NCBI RefSeq assembly: GCF_900106795.1
Contig: NZ_FNNS01000020.1
Location: 1-39,016, forward strand
Direction: 5' to 3'
Source: Aequorivita viscosa
Lineage (GTDB): Bacteria; Bacteroidota; Bacteroidia; Flavobacteriales; Flavobacteriaceae
Length of the DNA stretch: 39,016 nucleotides
Made by a program: the position numbers and the translations under genes. Below are positions 437 through 14,664 of this stretch, piece by piece (within the stretch, counting starts at the first letter, position 1; each line of letters opens with the position of its first letter). The notes beneath the pieces were generated by a model. The model ran no database searches. It was not told the DNA's origin and worked only from the letters and a program-made list of their open reading frames with translations.

Positions 437-451
437 GTGACCTTGCCAGGA
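437..451. repeat. attL: 15-bp copy of the tRNA-Arg 3' end
   Basis: The sequence GTGACCTTGCCAGGA is identical to 7895-7909, the 3' end of the tRNA-Arg gene (minus strand). It covers the acceptor 3' strand and part of the T stem. After base 451 the match to the tRNA stops, as expected for the far attachment site of a tRNA-targeting element. Confidence 0.8.
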
Positions 452-574
452 ATAAAATTAAGAAAGCCAAAGAAAACCTTTGTAACTCAATTTACTTTAT
501 TACCCACTAATTATAAAGATGTTATAAAGATTTTGTTGACAACTTCATTAAAACAAATTACATTCTATTTCCTA

Positions 575-596
575 ATTACGGACAAATTACGGACAT
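575..596. repeat. Tandem CGGACA motifs, left end (putative integrase arm sites)
   Basis: Two head-to-tail 11-mers, ATTACGGACAA (575-585) and ATTACGGACAT (586-596), lie between attL and the integrase start. A similar pair in the same direction lies just inside attR (7815-7834). Directly repeated motifs near both ends suit recombinase arm sites or excisionase sites. This is inference from position only. Confidence 0.5.
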
Positions 597-624
597 TTAC
601 AAGAGCATTTAAAACACTTGTATT

Positions 625-1911
625 ATGGCCAGCGTATTTTTTAGGTATCGTTCAACAAAGAATGAGGGATTTTTAACCGCCTGTTTGCTTACAGGACTAC
701 ACGGCAAAAAAGATTTTCAAGCCAGAAGTAAAATAAAAGTTGAAAAAAAGTTTTGGGATGAGTACCGTAAAAACACAAAATTCCAAGATGACTACAAAAA
801 GGATTTAAAAAAGGTTATTGACGAAAAAACCGAAAGCCTACAAAATTTTATTATTGCAAAGTTTGATGAGGTTACACAACCCGAAACAGTCAATAATGAA
901 TGGTTAAAAAACACCGTTTCTCTTTATAGCAATCCACGCAAAGCCGAAACGATCCCCAGCGATTTAATTTCTTATATTGATTTTTATGTTTCATCCCGAG
1001 AAGCAGAAGGCGAAGTAATTTCCGAAACCACGAAAACCCGCTATAAAGTTGTTCAAAATAAAATTACAGCATTTCAAGAGTACAGAGGGCAATCCATTTT
1101 AATAAAGGACATTAACAATGCCTTAAAAGTTGAATTTATTTCATTTGTTAAAATGAAGGAATACAACTTTGCCACATACCAACGTGACATGGTACATATT
1201 TTATCCTTTGCCAAACACGCCCGAACAAAAAATGTAGAAACACACCCAGAGCTGGATAACTTCAAAATAAAGATTGATTCCAAACAAAAAAAGAAAACGC
1301 AGAAGCTAAAAGCAACCCTTTCTTTTAGCGAGCTGGACGAAATAGCAAAAATTAAAGACCTCAAACCGCCCTTAGAGGATGCAAGGGATTGGCTATTAAT
1401 TTCGTGTTATTGTGGGCAAAGAATTGGGGATTTTATGCGATTTAATAAAACAATGCTTTATAAGGATAAAGACATTAACGGACAGGAACAAACCTTTATA
1501 AAATTTAAACAAGAGAAAACAGGCGTTTTAATGGATTTTCCTTTGCATCCAAAAATTGTTGAGATTTTAGACCAACGAAACGGAGAATTTCCAAAAAGGA
1601 TAACAGACCAGAAATATAATAAATTCATAAAACGAATATGCAGAATGGCCAAGATTAAAGAGCGTGTTAAAGGCGGAAAAATCGCAAAAACTGAAAGCGG
1701 AAACTATCGAAAACAAACAGGAAAGTTTGAGAAATGGCAATTAATTCAAAGCCATACTGGACGAAGGTCTTTTGCAACTAATTTTTTTAGAATTATGCCA
1801 ATTGATGAGTTAATGTACATCACAGGCCACACCTCATCAAAATCCTTTTTAATTTATGTTAATGAGAAGGACAACCAAAAAGGAAAACGAATTAGTTACG
1901 GTAATGTTTAA
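625..1911 (+). CDS. Tyrosine recombinase / integrase
   Basis: Site-specific recombinase of the phage integrase family, 428 aa, normal for Bacteroidota mobile elements. The N-terminal ~100 residues resemble an arm-binding domain, residues ~110-210 a SAM-like core-binding domain, and ~230-428 the catalytic domain. The catalytic set is complete: R266 (GQRIGD), K298 (EKTG), H377 and R380 (SHTGRRSF), H402 (TGH) and the nucleophile Y411 (FLIYVN). The gene lies beside attL and reads into the element. It should catalyse integration into and excision from the tRNA-Arg 3' end, probably aided by the HTH_17 protein at 2913. The ATG at 625 gives a natural N-terminus (MASVFFRYRS); there is no clear Shine-Dalgarno sequence, which is usual in this phylum. 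Confidence 0.93.
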   Translation: MASVFFRYRSTKNEGFLTACLLTGLHGKKDFQARSKIKVEKKFWDEYRKNTKFQDDYKKDLKKVIDEKTESLQNFIIAKFDEVTQPETVNNEWLKNTVSLYSNPRKAETIPSDLISYIDFYVSSREAEGEVISETTKTRYKVVQNKITAFQEYRGQSILIKDINNALKVEFISFVKMKEYNFATYQRDMVHILSFAKHARTKNVETHPELDNFKIKIDSKQKKKTQKLKATLSFSELDEIAKIKDLKPPLEDARDWLLISCYCGQRIGDFMRFNKTMLYKDKDINGQEQTFIKFKQEKTGVLMDFPLHPKIVEILDQRNGEFPKRITDQKYNKFIKRICRMAKIKERVKGGKIAKTESGNYRKQTGKFEKWQLIQSHTGRRSFATNFFRIMPIDELMYITGHTSSKSFLIYVNEKDNQKGKRISYGNV

Positions 1912-1923
1912 ATAATTGATACA

Positions 1924-2805
1924 ATGAGCAACAAAAGCAATATAACACCAGTAGATTTAAAATCCTTTTATCGGAATAGTTACAATGGAAGCGATTTGCA
2001 GAAAATAAACAGGAACAACCCTTTACCGCATAAATGCACAATTAAAGGACAAATGTTTTACTATTACAATGCCGATTTGAGCGGGTTAATGTGGTTGAAT
2101 GACAAGGAAAACAAATTAAAGTATTATGAGTTTGTAGAAGTGTACCGCAAAGGATTTGCGGAGGGTTTAAACCACTTAGAAACAAAGGAAGGTGTTAAAA
2201 GAAGGGATTATAATAAACCCGAAAAAAGAGAGCTAATAAAACAGGATTTAACGCATTTTTTTTACCAAAGGGATTTTTTACCAAATCATAAAGGCTTACA
2301 GGATTTAATGAATAAAACCATTTTAAGATGGACAGAAGAAAATATTTATAAGCAGGGTTATTATAACGGTTTACTTCATTCCATAGTAACTTTAAATAAG
2401 GAGCTAAATTTAAAAATAGGATTTCCCGAAACCTCGAATGAGGAAAATAAAACACCCGCCAAAGTTGGAAGACCAAAAGTCGAAATAAAACCCGCTCACA
2501 GTTATTTAAAATTTGAAAAGAAATCGAGTGAATTATTTTTAGAAAAATTTAAAGAAAAATTTCCAATTTCTGAACCTAAACAACTTGCATATTTAATAAT
2601 TACTTTATCAGATTTTGATTATTTAGAAGTTAGACATCAAAAAGCAGTTTTTCATTCCTTTGCAGAATTTTTTAAAGGAAATTGCGGAACCTATTCAGGA
2701 TTTAATGCCCATTGGAAAAACAGACATAACAAAAAGGACACGCAATTACATTATGATACAAAAGAGAAAATCAGACTTATAAAACATCAAAATACAATAA
2801 TATAG
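1924..2805 (+). CDS. Unknown element-encoded protein with central GRPK linker
   Basis: 293 aa, starting 12 bases after the integrase stop and so probably co-transcribed with it. I do not recognise the family. The N-terminal half (to ~175) is rich in Tyr, Lys and Asn. A basic linker with KVGRPKVEIKPAHS (about residues 180-193), resembling an AT-hook core, leads to a C-terminal ~90-residue region rich in Phe, Leu and Lys that ends HWKNRHNKKD. No signal peptide or membrane segment is seen. The GRPK motif recurs at the start of the proteins at 6254 (as GRTKG) and 7214. A DNA-binding or regulatory role is possible but is inference. Confidence 0.75.
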   Translation: MSNKSNITPVDLKSFYRNSYNGSDLQKINRNNPLPHKCTIKGQMFYYYNADLSGLMWLNDKENKLKYYEFVEVYRKGFAEGLNHLETKEGVKRRDYNKPEKRELIKQDLTHFFYQRDFLPNHKGLQDLMNKTILRWTEENIYKQGYYNGLLHSIVTLNKELNLKIGFPETSNEENKTPAKVGRPKVEIKPAHSYLKFEKKSSELFLEKFKEKFPISEPKQLAYLIITLSDFDYLEVRHQKAVFHSFAEFFKGNCGTYSGFNAHWKNRHNKKDTQLHYDTKEKIRLIKHQNTII

Positions 2806-2821
2806 CTTGATTTTATTATTT

Positions 2822-2857
2822 AATCAATTCAGTCAATTTTAATCAACTGCAAATCAA
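2822..2857. promoter_or_regulatory. Helically phased TCAA repeats upstream of the HTH gene
   Basis: TCAA occurs at 2824, 2833, 2843 and 2854, spaced 9, 10 and 11 bases, three times as AATCAA. They lie 24 bases upstream of a TACATTTG box and 56 bases upstream of the HTH_17 gene. Regular spacing on one DNA face suggests an operator or iteron-like site, but the motif is short and the region AT-rich. Confidence 0.35.
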
Positions 2858-2880
2858 TGAATTAGACTTAAAAGTGACAT

Positions 2881-2888
2881 TACATTTG
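2881..2888 (+). promoter_or_regulatory. Candidate Bacteroidota -7 box (TACATTTG)
   Basis: TACATTTG matches the TAnnTTTG consensus exactly and lies 24 bases before the ATG at 2913. No clear TTTG -33 element is found 19-22 bases upstream, so the promoter may need an activator. It would drive the HTH_17-wHTH-polymerase genes. Confidence 0.4.
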
Positions 2889-2912
2889 TTATAACATTAA
2901 AAAAACACAGTT

Positions 2913-3182
2913 ATGACAAATGTATTATTAAGTCCAATTGAAATTGGCAACCTTATCGACAGGATAGCGACCAGAACAGCCGAACTCATCCAAACAAGAC
3001 AAACCACCGTTCCCAATCCAGCGGACGACCTCATCACACCGAAAGAAGCGTGTGAGCTTTTACAATGTACCCCAGTTACTTTATGGAGGTGGGAAAAGAA
3101 AGGGCGTGTTACCCCTTATGGCATTGGAGGTAAAAAATTCTTTAAGCGTTCGGAGCTTTTAAATTCAATTGTAAAAAAATAA
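2913..3182 (+). CDS. HTH_17 / excisionase-like DNA-binding protein
   Basis: 89 aa. Residues ~38-85 form a MerR-like winged helix-turn-helix of the HTH_17/excisionase family: DLITPKEACELLQCTPVTLWRW, then a basic wing GRVTPYGIGGKKFFKRSEL. The first ~35 residues (LLSPIEIGNLIDRIATRTAEL) look helical and could dimerise; this architecture is common in Bacteroidota mobile elements. It sits 4 bases before the next gene, in the same transcription unit as the polymerase. Likely roles are directionality factor for the integrase and/or regulator of the replication genes; the sequence alone does not separate them. Confidence 0.85.
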   Translation: MTNVLLSPIEIGNLIDRIATRTAELIQTRQTTVPNPADDLITPKEACELLQCTPVTLWRWEKKGRVTPYGIGGKKFFKRSELLNSIVKK

Positions 3183-3186
3183 GGCT

Positions 3187-3558
3187 ATGAGAAAGAGTAT
3201 TTCCCACAGCCTTAAAAGTCTTTTGAGCAACATTAGACAGCGTAAAGATAAGCAACTTTTGAAGGATTACATAATCCGAACAATTGAAGATAAGACAGGC
3301 AAACCGATCCAATTACTTAGGAAAAACCACACCCAAAGAGAACTTTACAAAATTGGTTTATATTACGTTACCACGACAAACAAGGCAATTTGCGAAGCGT
3401 TAAAAATTCCCGTTGAAGCTGGAACACGTAGGAAACGAGAATTAGAGAAAGAAGGACGTTTGATAGCGTCCGCAAAGAAAAGGATTTGCCCATTTACAAA
3501 GCATCCAGCAAGGTTTTTAACGACCAATCCAGACCAATATAGAGAACTATTGAAATGA
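3187..3558 (+). CDS. Small basic protein, winged-helix-like, coupled to the polymerase gene
   Basis: 123 aa, strongly basic. I do not recognise a named family. The middle (TNKAICEALKIPVEAGTRRKRELEKEGRL) reads like the recognition part of a winged helix, and the end has FTKHPARFLTTNPDQY. Its stop TGA overlaps the start of the polymerase gene (ATGA at 3555-3558), an arrangement that favours translational coupling and suggests both act in one process. A role in origin recognition or loading of the polymerase would fit but is not shown by the sequence. Confidence 0.75.
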   Translation: MRKSISHSLKSLLSNIRQRKDKQLLKDYIIRTIEDKTGKPIQLLRKNHTQRELYKIGLYYVTTTNKAICEALKIPVEAGTRRKRELEKEGRLIASAKKRICPFTKHPARFLTTNPDQYRELLK

Positions 3559-5981
3559 GTGTAAAGGCTTCACAAAAAGCCTTTATTTCTCATTACATCA
3601 AACTGGATTTTTTCAATAATAGCAATTTGAAAACGGACATTCAAAACCGTATTTCAAATGAAAGTGAAATTAACTTTCAAAAAGCATTGGAGAACATTCA
3701 GGGCGACAATAAAGAAACCAAAGGCGTACCGTTTTCGGAATTGGCTTTATTAGCAATGGCCTATTTCTTTGAGCGTATATTTCCCGAAAATGTACCGCTC
3801 AAGGATTCGGACTACTGTATCAATTCCGTTAAAGGTTACTTTGACGCCTGTAATAACACCCCCTACACCCCTATTTATGAAATTGATACAACCTATCACA
3901 AGTTAAGAGATACGGCCTTATTTCGTGCCTGTTACCTTATAATTCAATCCGCTTGGTTTTTTAATTCAGAGCATTTCGGACGACATCAATATTTGGAATA
4001 TGCGAGCCACTACATAAGGACAGGCGAACAATTACCAGTTAATAAATATCAATATGACAAAGGTGACCTATTTCGGAAATATGCCCGAATTGATGAAAAG
4101 CGAAATACAAAACACCACCCCAAAGGCGAACCCGCTTTTAAATTTGTTGAACAATGGTATTATTATATTCTGTACTTGGTATGTAAAGAGTTAGAAATTC
4201 CTACAAACCATTTTAAAACTACTTTAAAGGACTTTAGAGAATACAACCCACTAACTAAATGCCCAAAAATATTAAGAGCGGAAACCCCCTTTAAAGTGAT
4301 TGAGTGCGACATTAAAAGTGCCTTTCCTTCATTCCTTGACCTTCAAACTGGATCACGTATAAAAGATGAGGTTTATACTAATTTAATGGAGCGGAAAAAT
4401 ATAAACAGATCCGATGCAAAAGTATTATTCAATTCTCATTTGAATAGTGGAAAGTATAAGACCAAAGAGCAAATAAAAAACTTTTTAATTGAATGTGGTT
4501 ATACAGCTACACCAGCAAATGAGATAACGAAATACACAAATGGCAAAATAAAATTTATAGTCCACATGTCCGAATTGGAGCAATGCGCAATACAAGATTT
4601 TATAGAAACTAATACTTTAAAAAATGCCGTGCGCCTTCACGATTCTGTTTTGTTTATTGATAGTGGAATGAAGGATTTAAACCTAAAGGCCGAAAACGGT
4701 TTAATCGAATTTGGAATGAGTGTTTTAAAGAAACCCGTATTTTCAAATAGTTTTGGTTATTCAAACAAAAGTTTACGATTTGCCTACATTTCGAGCGTAC
4801 CACCAGCAACAAACGAAGATTTTAAAAATTTAATCCGTAAACAAGTATTGACAAGGCCAAAAGTAAAAGGAGAAGCAAACGGCTTTAAATTCTACACCGA
4901 GAAATACGAATATATTTCAGCATCCTTTGACCTCAACCAAAAATACAGTTTTGAGGAATTTATTTTCAATTGTAGGGAAATGGTTTCTACTCTTAACTAT
5001 TTAAACGGCAAACCAATTTCAAAAACATTACTGTATTTAATCCTTTCCCACATACGGCAAAACAGCAACGTAATTTTTAATCTTAGATTTCTTTATAGGG
5101 AACTTTTAAAGCAAAGAACCCGAATTGACGATGTTATCACAAGGCAAAGAGATTTTGAGTTAACAGAAAGCCTAACATTCAAAAGGAAAATTGATTTTCT
5201 AAATGCGTTAAATAAAGCAAGAGGAGAAGTAAACAAAAAAGTAAGATTGAAACACCTATTCCGAACGCTGGAAAAGAGAGTTTCAAAACAAGATTTCTCT
5301 TTTATCGACTACAAAATGAAGGGAAAGGCAAAAACAAACGAACTTGCAAAGACTATTATGTTGAGAATTAATGTTTTAATCACTGGAAAAATAAGAAACA
5401 CCTATGCTCAAAACGCTAATACGAACCCTCTTTATAGTATTATTTATAAAGAGGGTACAAATTACAGGTTTGAGCATCATAAAAAGGCAAACAAACACCG
5501 ATTAATACAACGAAAAATACAAGCCTATGAAAAGGAATTATTAAGAGTAAACCGATTAATAAACAACAGGGAAACGGTTATTCAATACTTATTTATATTG
5601 GCCGAGCTTACAGGATTGGAGATAGACCAAAGCATCAAAGCCAATCCCGAAACGATCCAAAAGGAAAAGGCGTTTCTAATTCAGCAAATAACAGGAGCGG
5701 AATACAAAAGCACCCAGCAAGCGGAAAAGGCTTTTAATAGTTTATTTGTGCCAAAACCACCAAAGGAGATTGAAAGCCACATCCCCACACTAAAAGACTT
5801 TTGTACATCATTAAAACATTCAGCATTCAATATTGAAATAGAGCAAGCATACAGCAGAGGAAGCCAATTTTTTGATGAATATTTGAGATTTCACAAATTA
5901 AACGAAACCCCTAAAACAGTAAAAGCATTAAAACCAAAAACAATTGATTTCCCCCAGCTGGATTTTGATGACTGGAAATAG
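3555..5981 (+). CDS. Family A / T7-like nucleic acid polymerase, TV-Pol-like
   Basis: 808 aa. Three motifs occur in the order and form of superfamily A DNA polymerases and T7-type RNA polymerases. Motif A is VIECDIKSAFPS (D252), motif B is RSDAKVLFNSHLNSG (R285, K289, the RxxxK pair) and motif C is LHDSVLFID (H362, D363). The A-to-C distance (~110 residues) is far shorter than in Pol I, and no 3'-5' exonuclease is visible. This compact form is what is described for TV-Pol, a group found in bacterial mobile elements and virophages. The C-terminal half (~420-808) is a large basic, helical region with no domain I recognise. The probable role is copying the excised element or priming its replication. 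The family is inferred from motifs; whether it makes DNA or RNA is open. Confidence 0.7.
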   Translation: MSVKASQKAFISHYIKLDFFNNSNLKTDIQNRISNESEINFQKALENIQGDNKETKGVPFSELALLAMAYFFERIFPENVPLKDSDYCINSVKGYFDACNNTPYTPIYEIDTTYHKLRDTALFRACYLIIQSAWFFNSEHFGRHQYLEYASHYIRTGEQLPVNKYQYDKGDLFRKYARIDEKRNTKHHPKGEPAFKFVEQWYYYILYLVCKELEIPTNHFKTTLKDFREYNPLTKCPKILRAETPFKVIECDIKSAFPSFLDLQTGSRIKDEVYTNLMERKNINRSDAKVLFNSHLNSGKYKTKEQIKNFLIECGYTATPANEITKYTNGKIKFIVHMSELEQCAIQDFIETNTLKNAVRLHDSVLFIDSGMKDLNLKAENGLIEFGMSVLKKPVFSNSFGYSNKSLRFAYISSVPPATNEDFKNLIRKQVLTRPKVKGEANGFKFYTEKYEYISASFDLNQKYSFEEFIFNCREMVSTLNYLNGKPISKTLLYLILSHIRQNSNVIFNLRFLYRELLKQRTRIDDVITRQRDFELTESLTFKRKIDFLNALNKARGEVNKKVRLKHLFRTLEKRVSKQDFSFIDYKMKGKAKTNELAKTIMLRINVLITGKIRNTYAQNANTNPLYSIIYKEGTNYRFEHHKKANKHRLIQRKIQAYEKELLRVNRLINNRETVIQYLFILAELTGLEIDQSIKANPETIQKEKAFLIQQITGAEYKSTQQAEKAFNSLFVPKPPKEIESHIPTLKDFCTSLKHSAFNIEIEQAYSRGSQFFDEYLRFHKLNETPKTVKALKPKTIDFPQLDFDDWK

Positions 5982-6060
5982 TGTTAAAATGTGAATAACA
6001 ATTGGATAAAACACTGACAAACAGCGAAAAACAAGCCTTTTTAATGCTTATTTTTATATT

Positions 6061-6231
6061 ATGGAGTATGAAATATCAAAACGGTTAAGAGCTTCAATAC
6101 AAAAGGAAATTGAAGGCAAAGGACATCATAACAGAAAAGTAATTTTCGGAGCTATGGCAAAGGAAGTATTTAAGGACATTAGAAGCACCGCAATACTAAC
6201 AGGCGATAAAGTGGAAATGTTCAGTTTCTAA
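6061..6231 (+). CDS. Small element-encoded protein (56 aa)
   Basis: ATG at 6061, TAA at 6229-6231. The product begins MEYEISKRLRASIQKEIEGK and is Lys/Ile rich with mixed charge, typical of a folded small protein. It fills the gap between the polymerase and the GRTKG protein, in the same direction. No family recognised. Supported only by codon-like composition and position. Confidence 0.5.
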   Translation: MEYEISKRLRASIQKEIEGKGHHNRKVIFGAMAKEVFKDIRSTAILTGDKVEMFSF

Positions 6232-6253
6232 TCTAAAGTAGTTTAAAGTAGTT

Positions 6254-6574
6254 ATGGCAAATACAACAGGTAAAAAGTTTGGAGGGCGTACAAAAGGCAC
6301 ACCCAATAAAACGACACAGGAAATGCGGGATTTTATGCGGGATTTTTTGAGCCGAAAATTTGAGAAATTAGATGAGGTTTTCGACCAATTAGAGCCAAAA
6401 GAAAAGATTAACGCCCTTTTAAAGATGTTACCATACTTAGTGCCTAAACAGATGCAAATGGACTTAACAGCAACCCAGAAGCAAGAGCAAAAACAGGATT
6501 TAAGCAAGTTAACAGATGCTGAACTTCATACATTAATAGAGTTAACCGATAAGGTACAAACAAGTAAAAATTAA
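6254..6574 (+). CDS. GRTKGTPNK-type small protein, copy 1
   Basis: 106 aa. It begins with a basic AT-hook-like stretch (KKFGGRTKGTPNKTTQE), followed by helices and the block LEPKEKINALLKMLPYLVPK, then a Gln/Lys-rich linker and a short acidic helix. The protein at 7214 has the same layout (GRPKGSKNKSTAE, then LEPLERLNILLKLSKFVLP), so the two are paralogues inside one element. Proteins with this start are common in Bacteroidota phages and islands, usually without assigned function. DNA binding through the basic N-terminus is likely. A small-terminase-like role is a speculation I would not defend from sequence. Confidence 0.75.
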   Translation: MANTTGKKFGGRTKGTPNKTTQEMRDFMRDFLSRKFEKLDEVFDQLEPKEKINALLKMLPYLVPKQMQMDLTATQKQEQKQDLSKLTDAELHTLIELTDKVQTSKN

Positions 6575-6595
6575 TATCTTAAAAAAAGCGAACAA

Positions 6596-7168
6596 ATGAA
6601 AAGGATACTATTAAAAACAGACAATAAAAAAATTGAGTTAATAAAAAATGAAGCCACCAATTCGGCAAAAACCTTGAACAACTTAATAAAAGAAAGTGAA
6701 AAGGTTTGTAAAACCACATTTTCAAAAGACGAGCGGAACGGCATACGTGACGAAGGTATGGAGTACATTAAAAAGTATTTAAAACCTCAATTTCCATTCC
6801 CAGAGGGTGACGAAAACGTAAATTTAAAAATCTTAGGTATTGACCTTGAACCATTGGAAAAATTCATAAAAGGGAATTATCCAATATGGCGGAATTATCC
6901 AATAGAACAAAATGAAAACGGAGTTTTTGAATTGGTAGCAGAACCCAAACAAATTGAGGGCTGTTATACCTTCACCGAAAACGACAAGCAAGTAAGAGGG
7001 TACGAATTGGCCGTTCAAATCAGCGACCTAATAAATACAGCAATAGAGGAAAAATACATTCCAGAAAGCAACGCCCATAAGTTGTTTTTATTTGGTAATA
7101 TCATAACATCAAACCCACACCAAACGAGGGCAATACCAAACCCCGACCGAATAAGTCGAATAAAGTAG
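6596..7168 (+). CDS. Unknown element-encoded protein (190 aa)
   Basis: The ATG lies 22 bases after the previous gene. The first ~50 residues are a Lys/Asn-rich helix. No family recognised; no signal peptide or membrane segment. The coding sequence has an internal direct repeat GGAATTATCCAATA at 6873-6886 and 6891-6904 (period 18), giving NYPIWRNYPI around residue 95. The reading frame ends in RISRIK, where the DNA has near-repeats of CGAATAA running into the gap, so the C-terminus may have been shortened by slippage. Confidence 0.65.
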   Translation: MKRILLKTDNKKIELIKNEATNSAKTLNNLIKESEKVCKTTFSKDERNGIRDEGMEYIKKYLKPQFPFPEGDENVNLKILGIDLEPLEKFIKGNYPIWRNYPIEQNENGVFELVAEPKQIEGCYTFTENDKQVRGYELAVQISDLINTAIEEKYIPESNAHKLFLFGNIITSNPHQTRAIPNPDRISRIK

Positions 7169-7213
7169 AACAGGCGACCAAACCAATAAAATCGAATAAA
7201 CAAATAGTAAAAA

Positions 7214-7537
7214 ATGAAAGTAGGACGACCAAAGGGAAGCAAAAATAAAAGCACCGCAGAAGTACGGGCAAAGTTTCAGGAGCTAATAGAAAACAATCTT
7301 TCCCAGTTTCAGGACGACTTGAATAGCTTAGAACCACTTGAAAGGCTTAATATACTTTTAAAGTTATCAAAGTTTGTACTACCAACATTAAAAGCAACCG
7401 ATATTGTAGAGGACACAAAAAACGTTTTAGAAATTAGTTTTTATGATCCCGAAAAAAAGGAATATGAAACAATCAGTACAGATACGGACAAATTTAGAAT
7501 TACTGACATTTATAACCCAGACAGGGTTAAACAATAG
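7214..7537 (+). CDS. GRPKGSKNK-type small protein, copy 2
   Basis: 107 aa, paralogue of the protein at 6254: basic start VGRPKGSKNKSTAEVRAKFQ, a helical middle with SLEPLERLNILLKLSKFVLP, then an acidic tail (EDTKNVLEISFYDPEKKEYETISTD and so on). The N-terminus is predicted to bind DNA; the tail differs from copy 1 and may mediate a different contact. A second frame overlaps its last ~95 bases (see 7443). Confidence 0.75.
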   Translation: MKVGRPKGSKNKSTAEVRAKFQELIENNLSQFQDDLNSLEPLERLNILLKLSKFVLPTLKATDIVEDTKNVLEISFYDPEKKEYETISTDTDKFRITDIYNPDRVKQ

Positions 7538-7673
7538 GCAAATAAAAACCTTGCTATCAAAAGCCTATGGAATATTTATTTCAGGTGACGAAACAAAAGC
7601 GGAAATTATTGATTCCCTTAGTGCCTATTTTGAGAAGTACGACCACAAAGGCGAAAAGCCGTTATTTTTATAA
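7443..7673 (+). CDS. Possible overlapping small protein (C-terminal HeH/SAP-like helices)
   Basis: The frame is open from ATG 7443 (or ATG 7464) to TAA 7671-7673. The first ~30 residues overlap the end of the GRPKG gene in another frame; the last ~45 (RQIKTLLSKAYGIFISGDE, then an Ile/Leu helix) look like a real helix-extension-helix fold. Either it is a separate overlapping gene or the two frames were once one gene split by a frameshift. A strong terminator follows 30 bases later, so coding content here is plausible. Confidence 0.4.
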   Translation: MIPKKRNMKQSVQIRTNLELLTFITQTGLNNRQIKTLLSKAYGIFISGDETKAEIIDSLSAYFEKYDHKGEKPLFL

Positions 7674-7703
7674 TATAAACAAAACCGCTTTTTAGGTTTG
7701 TTC

Positions 7704-7739
7704 CCCGTTCGGTTGCTCATCATCCGAGCGGGTTTTTTT
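7704..7739 (+). terminator. Intrinsic terminator of the element's gene cluster
   Basis: Stem CCCGTTCGG (7704-7712) / CCGAGCGGG (7724-7732) with one G-T pair, 11-base loop, then seven Ts. It closes the rightward cluster before the right attachment site. Confidence 0.85.
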
Positions 7740-7814
7740 GTATCTTATAAAATAATTTAATTACCTTAGAAAAAATATCCCGTTTTTAACTCAAAATAAG
7801 AGCCTAAAAAATGT

Positions 7815-7834
7815 TTTCGGACAATTCACGGACA
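7815..7834. repeat. CGGACA motifs, right end (putative integrase arm sites)
   Basis: TTTCGGACA (7815-7823) and ATTCACGGACA (7824-7834) repeat the motif seen at 575-596, same direction and near-same spacing, about 60 bases inside attR. Arm or excisionase sites are a reasonable reading. Confidence 0.45.
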
Positions 7835-7866
7835 AAAAAAGGGTGCTAAAATTAATTAACACCCTG
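7835..7866 (-). terminator. Element-supplied terminator for tRNA-Arg
   Basis: On the minus strand a 9-bp stem GGGTGTTAA / TTAGCACCC (one T-G pair) with loop TTAATT is followed by seven Ts (plus-strand 7834-7840). It lies about 30 bases downstream of the tRNA-Arg 3' end, inside the element, and replaces the original terminator now stranded at 396-428. Confidence 0.75.
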
Positions 7867-7894
7867 TTTATTAGCCTGTTAAGCTGTAATACTT

Positions 7895-7909
7895 GTGACC
7901 TTGCCAGGA
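7895..7909. repeat. attR: 15-bp attachment repeat within tRNA-Arg 3' end
   Basis: GTGACCTTGCCAGGA, identical to 437-451. Here the match continues into the complete tRNA, so this is the side on which the element restored the gene. Confidence 0.8.
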
Positions 7910-7969
7910 TTCAAACCTGGAACCTCCTGAGCCGTAATCAGGTGCGCTATTCAGTTGCGCCACAAGGCC
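7896..7969 (-). tRNA. tRNA-Arg (anticodon ACG)
   Basis: 74 nt without encoded CCA. Acceptor GGCCTTG / CAAGGTC, D stem GCGC / GCGC, anticodon stem CCTGA / TCAGG with loop TTACGGC (anticodon ACG at 7933-7935 on the complementary strand), T stem CCAGG / CCTGG with loop TTTGAAT, discriminator A. It reads CGU/CGC/CGA arginine codons once A34 is deaminated to inosine. Its 3' end is the integration site of the neighbouring element and remains intact. Upstream on the minus strand a TTG-N18-TATTTATA arrangement with the palindrome AGACTGATAAGTCT (7990-8003) in its spacer may be the promoter. Confidence 0.95.
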
Positions 7970-8108
7970 GTGATTTTTATAATATAAATAGACTTATCAG
8001 TCTAAAAACAAGCTTTTGAACGTTGGTTTGGCTTGCTATATTGTTCTAATGGGGTGCAAATATAAAAAATACTAACACTTACCACAAGTAAAATCGTAAA
8101 ATTGATGA

Positions 8109-8384
8109 TTAAATTATTTCGGCACTTAATCCGGCGTCTAAAAGGATTGTACAACGTGGCTTTAACTCATTGAAATCGCCTGTTTTAACGGTACACTTCC
8201 CTTTATAGTGAACAAGTATGGTACATTGCTCTGCCTGTTCGGGAGTATGATCACATGCATAAATAAGTGTATTTATTACGTGATCAAAGGTGTTTACTTC
8301 GTCATTATATAGCACAATTTCGTTCTGATTGCTTTCCTGTTCAGCAACCGATATATCTTCTTGTATTTTTTCTTTGGTACTCAT
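8109..8384 (-). CDS. clpS: ATP-dependent Clp protease adaptor ClpS
   Basis: 91 aa. ClpS binds the ClpA/ClpC N-domain and delivers N-degron substrates to the ClpP protease. The conserved core is clear: VLYNDEVNTFDHVINTL (the ligand-pocket Asn-Asp pair and the helix after it), then the block YACDHTPEQAEQCTILVHYKG with the HxxG-type contact region, and a C-terminal strand ending AGLSAEII. Short acidic N-terminal tail, as in the family. It is the last gene of the minus-strand run with prmA and tpiA; prmA lies 63 bases upstream. Confidence 0.95.
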   Translation of the reverse strand: MSTKEKIQEDISVAEQESNQNEIVLYNDEVNTFDHVINTLIYACDHTPEQAEQCTILVHYKGKCTVKTGDFNELKPRCTILLDAGLSAEII

Positions 8385-8447
8385 AACTTCTATAAAATTC
8401 TAAAAATAAATTTGAAAAGACAAATCAATCAATACTCTTTAAACGTA

Positions 8448-9281
8448 TTAATTTACAAATTTAGCAGCTACCCATCTATTTTTCTCTTTATTCTCAACGA
8501 ACTCCATTCCTAAATTATTGCAACAATCAGTTATAATAGGTAAATCTTCGTTGTAAAAACCACTTAGATAAAGCGTTCCACCTTTGTTCAAACTCTTTTG
8601 ATAGGTTTCCATATCGTTTAAAAGAATATTACGGTTAATATTGGCGATAATTGAATCGTATTTCCTTCCAGGAAGCAATGAAGCGTCGCCAAGCTCTACG
8701 GTAATTGTTTTACAATTATTACGCTGCGTATTTTCTACTGAATTTTCATAACACCATTCATCAATATCTATGGCCTCAATTTTTGACGCACCACGCATTT
8801 CGGCTAGAATGGCGAGTACGGCAGTACCACACCCCATATCGAGAACGGTTTTACCTGTAAAGTCATTTTCAAGTATAAATTGCAACATCATAAAAGTTGT
8901 TTCGTGATGTCCTGTACCAAATGACATTTTTGGTTCTATTACAATCTCGTATTCAAAACTTTTCTTGGGATGAAACGGAGCTCTAACGGTACATTTTCCA
9001 TCCACTTCAATAGGATCAAAGTTTTTTTCCCATTCCGAATTCCAATTTACCTGTGCTATTTCTAAATGACTATAATCTATCTGGAATTCTTCAGAATTTA
9101 ATATATCAATCGTTTCCAAGATAGCTTCGTTCCATTCGTCTTTTTGGATATATGCTGTTACTCCTTCCTCGGTTTCCACAAAACTTTCGAATCCGGCGTA
9201 TCCCAATTCAGCAATCAATATTTCAGTACCGGGTTGAAGCGGCGCCACTTTAAAAATGTATTCTATATAAATTTGCGACAT
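8448..9281 (-). CDS. prmA: Ribosomal protein L11 methyltransferase
   Basis: 277 aa, usual length for the Bacteroidota form. PrmA trimethylates lysines and the N-terminus of ribosomal protein uL11 using S-adenosylmethionine. The N-terminal substrate-recognition domain spans ~1-90; then comes the class I Rossmann methyltransferase domain: KMSFGTGHHETT (PrmA signature), motif I VLDMGCGTAVLAILA, motif II acidic end EAIDID, and SIIANINRNILL (motif IV, where Asn contacts the substrate). The gene follows tpiA at 186 bases and precedes clpS. Confidence 0.95.
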   Translation of the reverse strand: MSQIYIEYIFKVAPLQPGTEILIAELGYAGFESFVETEEGVTAYIQKDEWNEAILETIDILNSEEFQIDYSHLEIAQVNWNSEWEKNFDPIEVDGKCTVRAPFHPKKSFEYEIVIEPKMSFGTGHHETTFMMLQFILENDFTGKTVLDMGCGTAVLAILAEMRGASKIEAIDIDEWCYENSVENTQRNNCKTITVELGDASLLPGRKYDSIIANINRNILLNDMETYQKSLNKGGTLYLSGFYNEDLPIITDCCNNLGMEFVENKEKNRWVAAKFVN

Positions 9282-9310
9282 ATTTTTTGGTTTAAAAGCG
9301 TAAATAAAAG

Positions 9311-9331
9311 AGTCTAGATTCTAGAGACTAG
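9311..9331. repeat. Three degenerate heptamers (NNNCTAG)
   Basis: AGTCTAG, ATTCTAG, AGACTAG in tandem, between tpiA and prmA. The last unit is identical to one in the longer heptamer array at 28233-28295, so the two arrays share a unit. No known function. Confidence 0.5.
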
Positions 9332-9467
9332 ACAAAATAATAAAGCAGAAAAAATTAAGGGCGAGAAGATTATACTTTTCAAAACTTCGGTTTCTAATAA
9401 CCTTGTTTTAGTCCAAAATTATTCAATCAATCTATAAATTCTTAGCACCGCACCCCACTCCCTTTTC

Positions 9468-10220
9468 TTATGAAAATGAATTAATGATTTTCATAAAACT
9501 ATCAACTTTCATGGAAGCGCCACCAACAAGCCCGCCATCTACATCTTTCTGTCCAAATATTTCTTTGGCGTTTTCTGGCTTAACACTTCCGCCGTATAGG
9601 ATTGAAACGCCATCGGCCACTTCTTTTGTGTAAGCATCTGCAATCGTATTTCGAATAAACTCGTGCATTTCCTGCGCTTGTTGTGGGCTCGCAGTTTCAC
9701 CAGTGCCTATCGCCCAAACTGGCTCGTAAGCTATAACAACCTGCTTCCAAGCTTCATTTGAAATATGAAATAAACCTTCCGTTATTTGGGTTTCAATTAA
9801 CTCAAAATGAGATTCGTTTTTACGATCTTCTAATTCTTCTCCGATACAAAAAATCACCTTCATATTGTTTTCCAAGGCAGTATTTACTTTCTCGGCAAGA
9901 ACTGCATTATCTTCATTAAAGTATGCACGTCGCTCGCTATGACCAATAATAACGGTGTTAACACCAACACTAGCTAGCATTTTAGCCGAAACTTCACCTG
10001 TAAAAGCGCCCGATTCATTTTGATTCATATTTTGAGCAATAACTGTTACTGGATGATCACGTAGCGACGTAAAAGCGTGGTGCAAGTTGGTGTGCGCAGG
10101 AGCTATCATAACTTCCACATTCTCTGGAATTACTTGCTTTTTTAAGTCGACTAAAAACATTTCTGTTTCAGCCAAGTCATAATTCATTTTCCAGTTTCCT
10201 GCTGCTATTTTCTTTCTCAT
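9468..10220 (-). CDS. tpiA: Triosephosphate isomerase
   Basis: 250 aa TIM barrel that interconverts dihydroxyacetone phosphate and glyceraldehyde 3-phosphate in glycolysis. All catalytic elements are present: K11 in GNWKMN, H94 in IIGHSERR, E166 in AYEPVWAIGTG (the flexible loop 6 follows), and phosphate-binding glycines near GGLVGGASM at the end. Length and start (MRKKIAAGNWKMN) are typical. It lies in a run with BT_3928/DUF1599 genes upstream and prmA/clpS downstream, a neighbourhood I recall from other Bacteroidota. Confidence 0.97.
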   Translation of the reverse strand: MRKKIAAGNWKMNYDLAETEMFLVDLKKQVIPENVEVMIAPAHTNLHHAFTSLRDHPVTVIAQNMNQNESGAFTGEVSAKMLASVGVNTVIIGHSERRAYFNEDNAVLAEKVNTALENNMKVIFCIGEELEDRKNESHFELIETQITEGLFHISNEAWKQVVIAYEPVWAIGTGETASPQQAQEMHEFIRNTIADAYTKEVADGVSILYGGSVKPENAKEIFGQKDVDGGLVGGASMKVDSFMKIINSFS

Positions 10221-10235
10221 AATTGGAGTTGTTAA

Positions 10236-10290
10236 GTTATTAGGTTATTGGGGTTATTGAGTTATTGGGTTATTAAGTTATTGAGTTATT
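10236..10290. repeat. Tandem octamer repeat GTTATTRR
   Basis: About seven units: GTTATTAG, GTTATTGGG (one base longer), GTTATTGA, GTTATTGG, GTTATTAA, GTTATTGA, GTTATT. It lies 16 bases upstream of tpiA, where it occupies the likely promoter/leader region. Only the two purines at the end of each unit vary, which suggests slippage plus mutation. Confidence 0.85.
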
Positions 10291-10398
10291 ATTGTACTAA
10301 ATAGATTTTTAATCGATTTTAGAAATTTTAAAAGGACATAAAACATCCTTTCTTAAAAATTAATATCATTACTGAATACTGATTACTGATTTACTGAA

Positions 10399-11475
10399 TC
10401 ACTGCCTACTAATCTTCGGGTCCAACCATCCATATACAATATCGACAAAAATATTGATTAAAATGAACAATGAAGCGATAACCAGTACCGCGCCCATTAT
10501 AACTGGCAAATCTAAAGTGTTTAGAGCGTTAACTATTTCTTTTCCCAGACCGTTCCAGCCAAAAATATATTCAACGAAAACAGCACCAGCCAGCATTGAA
10601 GCAAACCACCCTGAAATAGCAGTAACTACTGGGTTTAATGAATTTTTTAAGGCGTGCCTCGTAATTATTTTATAATATGACAAGCCTTTTGCTTTGGCTG
10701 TTCTAATGTAATCTTGATCTAAAACTTCTAATAGTGAATTTCGCATCAATTGGCTCACAACTGCAAGTGGTCGAATTCCTAGAACAACCGCTGGAAGAAT
10801 CAGGTTTTTCCATTGTATATACTTCCCGTTTCCGAAATCGTCAACTTCATACAGACTACCGGTCATGTTTAAATTAGTGTATTCGTGCAACAGAAACCCA
10901 AAAATCCAAGCAAAGATAATTGCGCTAAAAAACGACGGAATACTCATTCCTAAGGTGCTTAGTAATTGAATCATTTTATCTATAATTCCGTCTTTAAACA
11001 GCACGGATAGAATCCCCAAAATAACGCCAATTACCATGGCTATAATAATAGCGGATACAGCCAACACAAAAGTATTTGGAAGGGTTTCGACAATAACCTC
11101 GCTTACTTCTTTTCCGTTTTTTTGAAATGATTCCCGCAAATAAGGAAACTTTAAAACTGTGGTTGTATTTCCAATCGAAAATAATTTTGTAGCCGTATAT
11201 TTCCCTTCTTTAAGAAAAGTATAGTCTTCTGGGTTTTCACTGTGAAATGAAATGGGAGACAAGTCATTCAGGTATCGGATATATTGAACAGAAACGGGTT
11301 GATCAAAGCCGTACTTCTTCTTTACAACAGCCAGTTGTTCAGCGGTTTCATTTTGACCGAGCATCATACGAGCCGGGTCACCTGGAAGAATGGTAAACAA
11401 GATAAAAATAATAGTTACCACTCCGAAAAGGGTTAACAAAGCATATCCAAGTTTTTGAAGTACGTAAATTGTCAA
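10399..11475 (-). CDS. ABC transporter permease, DppB/OppB type
   Basis: 358 aa inner-membrane protein of the dipeptide/oligopeptide/nickel permease family. N-terminal TM1 (ALLTLFGVVTIIFILFTILPGDPARMMLG) with the family's PGDPA signature, a ~100-residue periplasmic insertion longer than in enteric DppB, then five more TM segments from ~130. The EAA loop reads DYIRTAKAKGLSYYKIITRHALKNSL near residues 245-270. It starts one base after the stop of the DoxX-DUF6624 gene, so the two are coupled. No partner permease, ATPase or binding protein is adjacent; the other subunits must be elsewhere. Substrate unknown. Confidence 0.88.
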   Translation of the reverse strand: MTIYVLQKLGYALLTLFGVVTIIFILFTILPGDPARMMLGQNETAEQLAVVKKKYGFDQPVSVQYIRYLNDLSPISFHSENPEDYTFLKEGKYTATKLFSIGNTTTVLKFPYLRESFQKNGKEVSEVIVETLPNTFVLAVSAIIIAMVIGVILGILSVLFKDGIIDKMIQLLSTLGMSIPSFFSAIIFAWIFGFLLHEYTNLNMTGSLYEVDDFGNGKYIQWKNLILPAVVLGIRPLAVVSQLMRNSLLEVLDQDYIRTAKAKGLSYYKIITRHALKNSLNPVVTAISGWFASMLAGAVFVEYIFGWNGLGKEIVNALNTLDLPVIMGAVLVIASLFILINIFVDIVYGWLDPKISRQ

Positions 11476-11476
11476 T

Positions 11477-13183
11477 TTATCCTGCGTTTATATCATTCAT
11501 TGTTAATGATTTGTACTCAAAATCGTCTCCAAAAAGCTGTTTGGCATATTCTTCAATCGTTGTATTAAAACCTGCTTTCTTTCTGCGCTCATTAACGGTT
11601 TCAGGATTCTCTATAGGCCAGATAAAATTTACGTCGTCTTCCATTCTACCCTGTGTACCATAAACTTGTGGTCTATTTTCATTCATTAAATATCTGTCTT
11701 CCATCATGGCTACTAAATTCATCGGAATTTCGCCCTTTGCTCCTGCTTCTTTAATAATAGGAAGGTATTGCGCAATTTTATTTGAATGTTGTAACACATA
11801 CCATGCAACGGTATTGGTTGGTTCGCCTACCATCGACTTCCCTGGATAACCTTTAGTATTGAATATTTTTTCAATATAATTCATATTTGAACTATCGATA
11901 ACAACTTGCATTTTCCACAAATCGCCGCTGTATTCAGCTTCAGTAAGCCCCATCTTCTCCCCTAATGCCGCCCTTTCTTCTGGAGATTTTGCCTGCATCA
12001 ATTTTCGATACTTTTGATCGAGTGCTCCAATGCTATCCAAGTGCCGTTTCATATTTAAATCGAGACTCGGTTTCGCATTTTGAAGAACGGGAAGTTCCAA
12101 TTTATGTGCATCATTCCAATGTAATTTTTGCTTGATGGTTCCCTTATCCAACTCCAGAATTCCAGGATTACTCCTAACAATAGTTTTCAGCGTAGTTTCA
12201 TCACAGAAATAAAACTTAAAATTTAGTTTGTAATCCTCTGCCAAAGCTTCAGTTGATTCCTGCGAAGAGGCAGAAAGTCCAATAACATTGTAACCATTTT
12301 TCAAGGCTTCATCGGTGACTTTTTTAACGGCAGGATATCCGTCTTTTTCAGTATTTCCGAGGCTATATGCTATAACAACTATTAAATTTTCTTCTTCTAA
12401 ATAATGTGAAGTATAGTCTTCGCCATCACGTTCTATCATAAAATCGTGGATTGGAGGCACATAACCCTCTTGAACCATTTTTGTTTCAACATCAATAAAT
12501 TCACCATGTACTTGTGGGTAGTCGCCTTGCGTTGTAATAATTTGTTCCTTTCCGTCTACCACAAATCGCCAGTGGTAATCAAAAATAGGCTGAGGGGCAT
12601 CATCAGGTGTACTCATTCCTTCTTGGATATTAGCTCCAATTTTATAAGGGCGGAAGTCTATTATAGGCAGGTGCATTAACACATAATATGCTATTCCTAA
12701 ACACGCAATAAATGAAGTAAGAATAAGTAAACCGCGACCTTTACTTGTGAAAATAGGGTGAATATATTTTTGTCCAAAGAATAGCACCAAAATCAACACT
12801 AGCAAGATAATATCTTTTGTGAAGGATTCCCAAGGTGTAAGTGGCATGGCGTCGCCAAAGCAGCCACAATCGGTTACTTTGTTGAAATAAGCGGAATAAA
12901 ATGTCAAGAATGTAAAAAATACGATCATTAATAAAAGCGACCAGATAGTTAGTTTTTTAAAATGGCCTAAAAGCAAGGCAATTCCGAGTAAAACTTCGAC
13001 GATAACCAAAACGATCGCTATTAAAAGCGCGAAAGGAACCAAAAATTCGAGCCCAAGCACTTCTGGAGCGAAATAATCCTTTAGTTTAAAAGAAAAACCT
13101 ACTGGATCATTTAATTTTATTAATCCGCTAATTATAAAAAGCGCTCCAACAATAAATCTAGATATTGCTACTAATATTTTCAT
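11477..13183 (-). CDS. BT_3928-type DoxX/MauE membrane protein fused to a DUF6624 domain
   Basis: 568 aa. Residues ~1-135 form a four-helix MauE/DoxX unit with the CGCFGDAMPLTPWESF motif (Cys pair after TM3), followed by a further TM segment at ~150-170. Residues ~185-360 are an extracytoplasmic region with a thioredoxin-like segment (ENLIVVIAYSLG). The last ~190 residues carry features of DUF6624: VAWYVLQHSNKIAQYLPI, an AGAKGEI turn, MMEDRYLM and QVYGTQG. BT_3928-type proteins are usually ~360-380 aa and end before this domain, so this is a fusion. A disulfide or redox role is likely for the N-part. It is five bases from the DUF1599 gene and one base from the permease. Confidence 0.85.
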   Translation of the reverse strand: MKILVAISRFIVGALFIISGLIKLNDPVGFSFKLKDYFAPEVLGLEFLVPFALLIAIVLVIVEVLLGIALLLGHFKKLTIWSLLLMIVFFTFLTFYSAYFNKVTDCGCFGDAMPLTPWESFTKDIILLVLILVLFFGQKYIHPIFTSKGRGLLILTSFIACLGIAYYVLMHLPIIDFRPYKIGANIQEGMSTPDDAPQPIFDYHWRFVVDGKEQIITTQGDYPQVHGEFIDVETKMVQEGYVPPIHDFMIERDGEDYTSHYLEEENLIVVIAYSLGNTEKDGYPAVKKVTDEALKNGYNVIGLSASSQESTEALAEDYKLNFKFYFCDETTLKTIVRSNPGILELDKGTIKQKLHWNDAHKLELPVLQNAKPSLDLNMKRHLDSIGALDQKYRKLMQAKSPEERAALGEKMGLTEAEYSGDLWKMQVVIDSSNMNYIEKIFNTKGYPGKSMVGEPTNTVAWYVLQHSNKIAQYLPIIKEAGAKGEIPMNLVAMMEDRYLMNENRPQVYGTQGRMEDDVNFIWPIENPETVNERRKKAGFNTTIEEYAKQLFGDDFEYKSLTMNDINAG

Positions 13184-13187
13184 TCGT

Positions 13188-13772
13188 CTATTTTCTTAAT
13201 TCTTTATTCTCTTCTCTTTGCTCTTTATTCTCTCTTCTATTATCCAAATGTATCAACGCAAACACTGCATAATTAATCATATCTTGATAATTTGCTTCAA
13301 TTCCTTCAGAAACCCTTGTTTTACCTTGATTGTTTTCAATTTGCTTTACCCGCAATAACTTTTGAAGAATCAGATCTGTTAATGAGCTCACGCGCATATC
13401 CCGCCAAGCCTCACCATAATCGTGATTTTTATCCATCATTAGCTGCTTTGTTTCGGCAACGTGCTCGTCATAAAGTTGGGTTGCTTCTTCTAGATTGAGG
13501 TCAGGTTGCTCAACAACGCCTTTCTCAATTTGAATTAAGGCCATAACAGCATAATTTACGATTCCTATAAACTCACTGGCTTCGTCCTCCTGAATTTTTT
13601 GAACTTGGTTTTGTTGCAAACCTCGTATGCGTTGTGCTTTGATAAAAATTTGATCGGTCAACGATGGGAGTCGCAGAATTCGCCACGCACTTCCATAGTC
13701 GTGCATTTTATTGATAAACAGCGCTCTGCATTTTTCAATTTGTTCATTGTATTGATTTGAGGTGTCTTCCAT
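13188..13772 (-). CDS. DUF1599 protein with two tandem repeats
   Basis: 194 aa. The DUF1599 (nucleotide-modification-associated) unit occurs twice: ALFINKMHDYGSAWRILRLPSLTDQI (about residues 15-40) and QLMMDKNHDYGEAWRDMRVSSLTDLI (about 110-135), each followed by a helix ending in NYAVMALI / NYAVFALI. The HDYG..WR motif suggests a conserved active or binding site in both halves. The biological substrate is unknown. It heads a tight minus-strand cluster with the DoxX-DUF6624 gene (4-base gap) and the permease. The C-terminal tail is a short charged repeat (REENKEQREENKELRK), outside the domain. Confidence 0.88.
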   Translation of the reverse strand: MEDTSNQYNEQIEKCRALFINKMHDYGSAWRILRLPSLTDQIFIKAQRIRGLQQNQVQKIQEDEASEFIGIVNYAVMALIQIEKGVVEQPDLNLEEATQLYDEHVAETKQLMMDKNHDYGEAWRDMRVSSLTDLILQKLLRVKQIENNQGKTRVSEGIEANYQDMINYAVFALIHLDNRRENKEQREENKELRK

Positions 13773-13826
13773 TTTCTAGGTGTAAGATTTTGTGTAAATT
13801 TCGCTTAAATAAATCAATCTAAAAAA

Positions 13827-14654
13827 TTGCAAACCCTCAATTGCCACGGCAACCTTATAGAACTTGATTCGCCCAAAGTTATGGGTATTATCAATATTAC
13901 GCCCGATTCATTTTATGACGGAGGTAAAAGTTTTTCTGAAAAGAACATTTTAAATCAAGCCGAAAAAATGCTTTCTGACGGCGCTACATTTCTAGATATT
14001 GGAGGTTATAGCACGCGCCCTAATGCCGAAGAAATTTCTGAAAGTGAAGAAACTAAAAGAGTCGTAAACGCTATTGAACTAGTTTTAAAAAAATTCCCGC
14101 AAACCTTAATTTCTATAGACACTTTCCGAAGTGATGTCGCAAAAAAATCTATTGAAACGGGTGCTGTACTGGTAAATGACGTTTCTGGCGGAACGCTGGA
14201 TAGCCATATGTTTAGTACTGTAGCCGAGTTGAAGGTTCCTTACGTTTTGATGCACATGCGGGGCACACCTAAAACAATGTCTAAGCTTACAGACTATAAC
14301 AATGTTACAGTTGATGTACTGAAAGATTTATCGGGGAAAATTGCAAATGCCCATGCGGCAGGAATCAATGACATCATTGTTGATCCAGGATTTGGTTTTG
14401 CTAAAACCCGTGAACAAAATTTCGAATTAATGGGTAATCTTGAATTATTTGAGAATTTGGATGTACCTGTCTTGGTTGGAATATCGCGTAAATCGTTCAT
14501 TCAAAAAACGCTAGGAATCGATGCCGCAAGTGCACTTAATGGTACATCTTCACTAAACACGGTTGCCCTTGTGAAGGGAGCAAAAATACTTCGTGTTCAT
14601 GACGTTAAAGAAGCTGTTGAGTGTGTGAAATTGATTGAAAACCTAAATCCGTGA
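13827..14654 (+). CDS. folP: Dihydropteroate synthase
   Basis: 275 aa. Condenses 6-hydroxymethyl-7,8-dihydropterin diphosphate with p-aminobenzoate in folate synthesis; target of sulfonamides. Motifs: VMGIINITPDSFYDGG (Asn and the first signature), FLDIGGYSTRP (pterin/pABA loop), LISIDTFRS, LVNDVSGG, LMHMRG, DIIVDPGFGFAKT, and VLVGISRKSFI near the end. The start is TTG at 13827, giving MQTLNCHGNL; this is the only start that gives the normal N-terminus. The cdaA gene follows 10 bases after the stop, and this pairing is seen in other Bacteroidota. It diverges from the DUF1599 gene with a 54-base gap. Confidence 0.96.
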   Translation: MQTLNCHGNLIELDSPKVMGIINITPDSFYDGGKSFSEKNILNQAEKMLSDGATFLDIGGYSTRPNAEEISESEETKRVVNAIELVLKKFPQTLISIDTFRSDVAKKSIETGAVLVNDVSGGTLDSHMFSTVAELKVPYVLMHMRGTPKTMSKLTDYNNVTVDVLKDLSGKIANAHAAGINDIIVDPGFGFAKTREQNFELMGNLELFENLDVPVLVGISRKSFIQKTLGIDAASALNGTSSLNTVALVKGAKILRVHDVKEAVECVKLIENLNP

Positions 14655-14664
14655 CCGCAAATCA

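Follow-up and report, generated by a model that had tools for sequence, protein, structure and literature searches.

A window of 39,016 nucleotides from Aequorivita viscosa (NCBI RefSeq assembly GCF_900106795.1, contig NZ_FNNS01000020.1, positions 1 to 39,016 of the forward strand) was analysed for an integrated element at positions 437-7909. The original prediction had described it as an element inserted at a tRNA gene and built around a compact polymerase, with exact 15-bp repeats at both ends, an intact tRNA at one end and an integrase at the other. All of these features were recovered. The attachment (att) copies at 437-451 and 7895-7909 are exact repeats of 15 bp without assigned strand, and they enclose 7,458 bp (~7.46 kb). 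The right copy forms the 3' terminus of an intact tRNA-Arg(acg) gene (7895-7969, minus strand; Rfam tRNA, 58.5 bits), in which the element is lodged, and a tyrosine integrase is encoded at the left end (625-1911). 15-mers of the tRNA occurred in none of 3,000 random-model runs, a separate simulation set; an earlier set of 300 simulations with a first-order Markov model had produced a longest tRNA match of 15 in one or more runs. The left att copy is also supported by an empty site in a congener, a check that the prediction had proposed. Positions 251-451 joined to 7910-8700 aligned from window base 359 onwards to the congener G400 with 641 of 840 columns identical (76 %) and 23 gap columns, none of them near the junction. 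By this alignment, the uninterrupted tRNA-Arg site of G400 is an empty site. In the congener G399, the left flank also directly meets an intact tRNA. A left-flank match was among the matches listed for these two of 27 congeners, the other 25 being uninformative. Both flanks are native to the host, hence the element is not a piece of a larger ordinary prophage, an origin which the original prediction had considered and which is now ruled out. The element is present once in the genome.

Ten co-directional open reading frames (ORFs), all on the plus strand, were considered, and Pfam, PHROGs and NCBIfam were searched with their products. The integrase (P0002, 428 aa) matched PHROG 216 (integrase, 1.5e-12) and, slightly under the Pfam cut-off, Phage_integrase (2.3e-5). 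The following gene, P0003 (1924-2805, 293 aa), had no family match and no assigned function; a relative in locus L135 shared 31 % over 161 aa. P0004 (2913-3182) encodes an excisionase/AlpA-like protein with a helix-turn-helix (HTH) domain (HTH_17, 4.7e-9; PHROG 66 excisionase and regulator, 4.8e-8). P0005 (3187-3558, 123 aa) overlaps the start of the polymerase gene and has relatives at the same position in L009, L058, L069, L078 and L134. The polymerase, P0001 (3555-5981, 808 aa), combines a TV-Pol-like core (about residues 129-398) with an unrelated C-terminal half. Downstream are P0009 (6061-6231), a doubtful gene of 56 aa without match, P0006 (6254-6574, 106 aa), the cassette member P0007 (6596-7168, 190 aa; function not assigned), P0008 (7214-7537, 107 aa) and P0010 (7443-7673), which has at most 76 aa and a real start that is probably later, near 7464. 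P0006 and P0008 belong to one family of possible small-terminase-like proteins. Own genome included, relatives of P0007 were present in 5 and those of P0008 in 9 of 199 family genomes; the latter loci were viewed except in G136 and G137. The main element genes are open. A relaxase, transfer or mating genes and a capsid, already noted as absent, matched none of the ten proteins in the three databases. PHROG matches with phage-structural or packaging names stayed at chance level (P0001, virion protein, E 0.025; P0004, terminase small subunit, E 0.09), and PADLOC yielded no hit for ten proteins, P0003, P0006, P0007 and P0008 among them.

The polymerase had no match in Pfam or NCBIfam, so that the label family A-like derives from its motifs and from comparing profiles. 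Arg241, Asp252, Arg285, Lys289, His362 and Asp363 are invariant (11/11 and 12/12 sequences). The published TV-Pol description gives as signature a hairpin arginine, two catalytic aspartates and RxxxK in the fingers (PMC2579912). From its sequence, the polymerase keeps TV-Pol-type catalytic residues, the role given to each residue being our own assignment. In hhalign, the core of 12 sequences scored 39.0 against 30 PolA sequences (E 1.4e-4, probability 53 %), with only 75 columns aligned and neither aspartate covered. The maximum of 60 column shuffles was 22.5 and the reversed control gave 17.1; among other cores, all 20 together scored 29.3, the helicase-type 12.4 and those of L012 and L013 22.3. 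With moderate confidence we consider the core as family-A-like. The predicted family A-like polymerase is thus moderately supported by its catalytic motifs and by a PolA profile score above the shuffles, but the resemblance to a polymerase is confined to the first half of the 808-aa protein. Ma-LMM01 was tried as TV-Pol reference and rejected: its gp030, the guessed TV-Pol, was not detected, and no direct sequence link to a published TV-Pol was obtained. No credible match emerged from profile searches of the PDB with A1, A2, A4 and A5, the hit of A5 to an AT-hook peptide having E 0.77.

Seven of 397 family genomes, own included, had a relative of the polymerase, and the six others matched the core only. 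In the Flavobacterium group, 18 of 299 genomes contained relatives, eight of them near full length. The C-terminal half alone as query found 6 of 395 order genomes, own included, with three strong and two marginal matches, while the core profile found 3 of 395 phylum genomes, again with the own genome. A pattern scan of named species genomes detected the full-length protein in at least 11 loci labelled Flavobacterium or Flavobacteriaceae bacterium. Eleven named relatives align over ~800 residues with 41-44 % identity to the window polymerase. Several named hosts among the loci L074-L084, which carry this helicase-less polymerase (frigoris, gillisiae, xueshanense, omnivorum and urumqiense), are, as we assume, Flavobacterium species of cold environments.

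The second half of the protein is exchanged between relatives. In L008-L011, L069 and L070 the homologous core (hhalign probability 99.8 %) is followed by a helicase-like half, with RGK[ST] in six of six proteins and a resemblance to proteins annotated as VirE-type, primase-helicase or primase. This architecture fits the TV-Pol-D5 fusions of PMC2579912, where the linkage of TV-Pol to a D5-like helicase is frequent, not obligatory. A P-loop is absent from all 12 window-type proteins, namely the window polymerase and the 11 named relatives, and none was recognisable in element ORFs of at least 40 aa. The helicase-like half and the window-type C-terminal half showed no profile similarity. As judged by these comparisons, the helicase half is replaced by an unrelated C-terminal half in the window polymerase and its 11 named relatives, a difference that the original prediction had not noticed. 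A further arrangement was seen in L012 (8084-10717) and L013 (8415-11129), where the same core forms the C-terminus of ~880-900-aa proteins; in L012 it stands behind a ResIII/DEAD-like N-terminal part, and visual inspection suggested a similar layout in L013 and an odd P-loop in these proteins.

Repeats of the att type were sought in 19 loci, and eight had a tRNA-anchored repeat; in L064 and L009 it measured only 13 bp, the shortest length accepted. L078 has a 14-bp repeat like that of L058, no tRNA being called in the locus, and its addition gave nine elements with set ends. L034, L035, L036, L076, L061, L062, L081, L010, L011 and L070 were left out for want of a trusted repeat, L034 and L076 lying at contig ends. 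The order integrase, variable gene, HTH gene, polymerase recurs, with tRNA-anchored repeats at eight loci; the gene order expected beside tRNA genes elsewhere was thereby found. Within the window element, two exact tandem copies of an 11-mer (574-595, no strand) are the only exact tandem 11-mer, and a diverged pair of it (7813-7834, no strand; 3 and 2 mismatches) keeps the same 11-bp spacing near the right end. Each of the nine elements has a repeat common to both of its ends, with a spacing of mostly 11 bp. These repeats are probably integrase arm sites.

The integrase and HTH genes, at times with a P0005 relative, recur beside other replication genes. In L134, a 1018-aa DEAD/ResIII protein (5023-8079) takes the position of the polymerase between a P0005 relative and P0006-P0007-P0008, which are kept in the order of the window with 63 %, 28 % and 57 % identity. 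L135 has AAA_25 and DUF6371 proteins as replication genes together with P0008- and P0007-type genes. The replication genes of L136 encode D5/DUF5906 and DUF6371 proteins, and the congener island L144 has a 388-aa protein and a relative of the DUF6371 protein of L136. P0008 is followed by P0010 in both, with identities of 58 % and 33 % in L136 and 71 % and 40 % in L144. A P0006/P0008 relative is present in L066, where the polymerase is represented by a C-terminal piece only, and L008 shares a P0007 relative (28 %). L008 was dropped as a carrier of a P0006/P0008-type gene: its 125-aa DUF5681-like protein (Pfam E 0.014) misses the P0006/P0008 profile.

The context of P0008 relatives elsewhere gave a clue to packaging. 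L139 encodes a P0008 relative (40 % over 65 aa) whose gene shares 13 bp with that of a 426-aa large terminase (PHROG 2, 4.5e-30; Terminase_6N, 3.7e-7). Both are located in a 12.3-kb interval (~3044-15408) between 17-bp repeats at tRNA-Leu(caa), which also has an integrase and an AAA_25 protein; four proteins of the interval were scanned. The interval is possibly a satellite with its own terminase pair. A profile of the P0008 family, built from eight island-borne members without L139 and L140, was run against 687 ORFs from stretches partly picked for weaker earlier matches, hence not an unbiased survey. Four ORFs matched: gp71 of BF1-TP2 (2e-19), L139 (1.1e-18), gp58 of BKO1-TP3 (8.5e-14) and the first gene of phage MW202710 (1e-10); the next-best ORF had 0.057. 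The MW202710 gene overlaps an annotated large terminase. In two of the four, L139 and MW202710, the family member thus lies directly upstream of a large terminase and overlaps it, the position of a small terminase. In the window itself, P0006 and P0008 are not beside a large terminase. Among curated models, DUF5681 matched two of ten family members, P0008 not among them, and other matches were PHROGs without assigned function. Pfam, PHROGs and the PDB contained no small-terminase model or structure matching P0006 or P0008, and a viral-contig scan for a P0008 relative, made with few peptide patterns, was negative. The helical hairpin of a P0008 structure model recalls, in our view, small-terminase cores; this likeness was not counted as evidence. 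On the gene position of family members elsewhere, P0006 and P0008 are possibly small-terminase-like proteins.

With slightly better than even confidence, we interpret the element as an integrative island that depends on a helper and is most likely a phage satellite. The original prediction of an integrated element at tRNA-Arg around a TV-Pol-like polymerase agrees with the att repeats, the empty site in G400 and the catalytic motifs. With the HTH_17 protein and the arm sites near either end as guides, the integrase would recombine the two 15-bp att copies, and the element would leave as a circle. Replication of the circle would fall to the element's TV-Pol-like polymerase, which might double as primase; a helicase borrowed from host or phage is proposed because a recognisable P-loop is missing from all element ORFs. 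A helper phage would then package the element, with P0006 and/or P0008 as small-terminase subunits that mark its DNA for the large terminase of the helper; we infer this step from the gene neighbourhood of the P0008 family. Integration into tRNA-Arg of the next cell would leave a whole tRNA there, because the element end restores it, in keeping with the intact tRNA observed here. More specifically, the element may belong to a lineage of phage satellites in Bacteroidota that has not been described before and would rank with the smallest known. Its members would replicate with a family-A-type polymerase that lacks a helicase and has a new domain at its C-terminus, and DUF5681-type proteins, as small terminases, would redirect helper packaging. 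This narrower proposal is tentative and may well fail.

Known systems resemble the element in part. Phage satellites in general depend on a helper phage for induction, replication and packaging. The phage-inducible chromosomal minimalist islands (PICMI) of Vibrionaceae are likewise very small, with a core of integrase, HTH_17/AlpA-like protein and own replication protein, and have no capsid-remodelling genes (PMC10803314). They differ in the fis site and a DUF3987/DUF5906 primase, in place of which the window element has tRNA-Arg and a TV-Pol-like polymerase; Pfam matched neither DUF3987 nor DUF5906 among the ten proteins. The window element also carries P0006/P0008-type genes, and its helper and particles are hypothetical. 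Phage-inducible chromosomal islands (PICI) share an integrase, an AlpA/excisionase-like regulator, a replication module and the lack of structural or lytic genes, and some carry terS (PMC6092414). Their attachment sites are described as never occupied by prophages. However, they have ~12-15 kb instead of 7.5 kb and occur in another phylum, and the helper and the small-terminase role proposed for the window element are putative. In the favoured reading the element would work in the manner of PICMI and PICI, with its own replication protein and borrowed particles. The element is therefore neither a PICMI, by its primase and site, nor a typical PICI, by its size. In Pseudomonas, too, a phage has been reported to move islands of broadly this type (PMC12595487). 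The TV-Pol mobile elements of PMC2579912 likewise combine a polymerase bearing the described catalytic residues with a lambda-type integrase, and elements related to that of the window have the helicase-like half fused behind the polymerase; in the window element itself the unrelated half stands instead, and the direct sequence link is missing. Staphylococcal cassette chromosome (SCC) elements with primases of PolA and single-stranded DNA-binding protein (SSB) resemble it in a family-A-type putative replication protein, integration and the lack of known transfer genes (PMC10061031). They use a serine recombinase, the window element a tyrosine recombinase; no helicase gene was found in the latter and no SSB-like partner identified, structure not being used.

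Several observations weigh against a phage satellite. Relatives of the polymerase were absent from 50,697 phage and 72,556 plasmid records, and scans of viral contigs, made with few peptide patterns each, were negative. In the Bacteroides phage BF1-TP2, the P0008-type gene lies near the integrase, ~19 kb from the terminase-noted gene, and in the Bacteroides phage BKO1-TP3 no terminase is annotated within the 13 kb looked at around gp58. The host has no Terminase_6N gene, the one terminase family searched; a helper would therefore have to enter the cell as a phage from outside or use a different type of terminase. P0006/P0008 relatives were found neither in ten loci with a full-length polymerase nor in the element L009, hence the cassette is not general in elements with the polymerase, which slightly lowers the odds of a satellite. 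The structure models were uninformative: that of the polymerase (12 sequences) was poor, with a mean predicted local distance difference test (pLDDT) score of 55.3 and nothing at E ≤0.001 in Foldseek against the PDB, and that of P0008 (two sequences) was weak (61.9) without structural match. For all of these elements, movement today is hypothetical.

The original prediction had left the vehicle between a borrowed conjugative element and a phage. We favour a phage because the P0006/P0008 family holds the small-terminase position in two other contexts; the analyses made gave no sign of conjugation, no search for an origin of transfer (oriT) being among them. Integrative mobilizable elements are known in Bacteroidota, and the window element could be one with only an oriT, its relaxase and mating apparatus being supplied in trans. 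Integration, an integrase, an own replication gene and the lack of a capsid match would suit such an element. It is unlikely, as the searched databases gave no relaxase or transfer match, oriT aside, and the P0008 family adjoins large terminases, not transfer genes, in the two informative contexts. Passive spread by generalized transduction, vesicles or DNA uptake would need no dedicated packaging or mobilization, the polymerase merely lifting the copy number. The element L009 is of the kind expected: apart from the integrase and HTH genes, its 5.8 kb contain little more than a 107-aa gene and the gene for the polymerase-helicase protein. Nevertheless, P0006-P0007-P0008 in L134 and P0008-P0010 in L136 and L144 persist beside different replication genes as if they had their own job, and we regard passive spread as rather unlikely.

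A cargo or defence island, in which the polymerase works for the host, against phages or otherwise, and not for island replication, appears improbable. Some relatives do have defence-like cargo, e.g., HD-CE/HATPase and Fic proteins, and a defence role of polymerase-SSB primases has been raised (PMC10061031); on the other hand, PADLOC gave nothing for P0003, P0006, P0007 and P0008, and D5 or AAA-type replication genes occupy the polymerase position in other islands. That the element is a defective remnant, no longer mobile, is very improbable: the diverged right arm repeats and the single copy would agree with decay, but the main genes are open, the att copies exact and the six family-invariant residues kept.

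Among the matches listed in searches of an open-licence library, none described such an island in Bacteroidota. A phage satellite, if confirmed, would provide a testable system for this phylum in culturable Flavobacterium species. The replication module of such islands would be exchanged as one unit against a constant set of integration and putative packaging genes, and a function would be suggested for the DUF5681 family. It would also raise the question how a polymerase without its former helicase half can initiate replication and keep it going.

Accessory genes of related elements included an HD-CE and HATPase protein in L064 (3597-6275) and a Fic protein in L063 (3942-5036); a ~190-aa family without assigned function is common to L058, L064, L069 and L078. 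The faecal 'phage' record MT836782 has a similar integrase and was set aside, its remaining ORFs looking like ordinary bacterial genes by eye. The left end of L008 (reverse complement) has two copies of the tRNA-Arg end, of 15 bp and 48 bp, at 4083 and 4257, 174 bp apart, which may have been left by another integration event at that tRNA. The window starts with the first base of a 75-kb contig, and positions 1-360 are a piece of an insertion sequence. Copies of ~330 bp with 100 % identity start the contigs C13, C42 and C55 of the same genome, thus the insertion-sequence repeat probably broke the assembly there.

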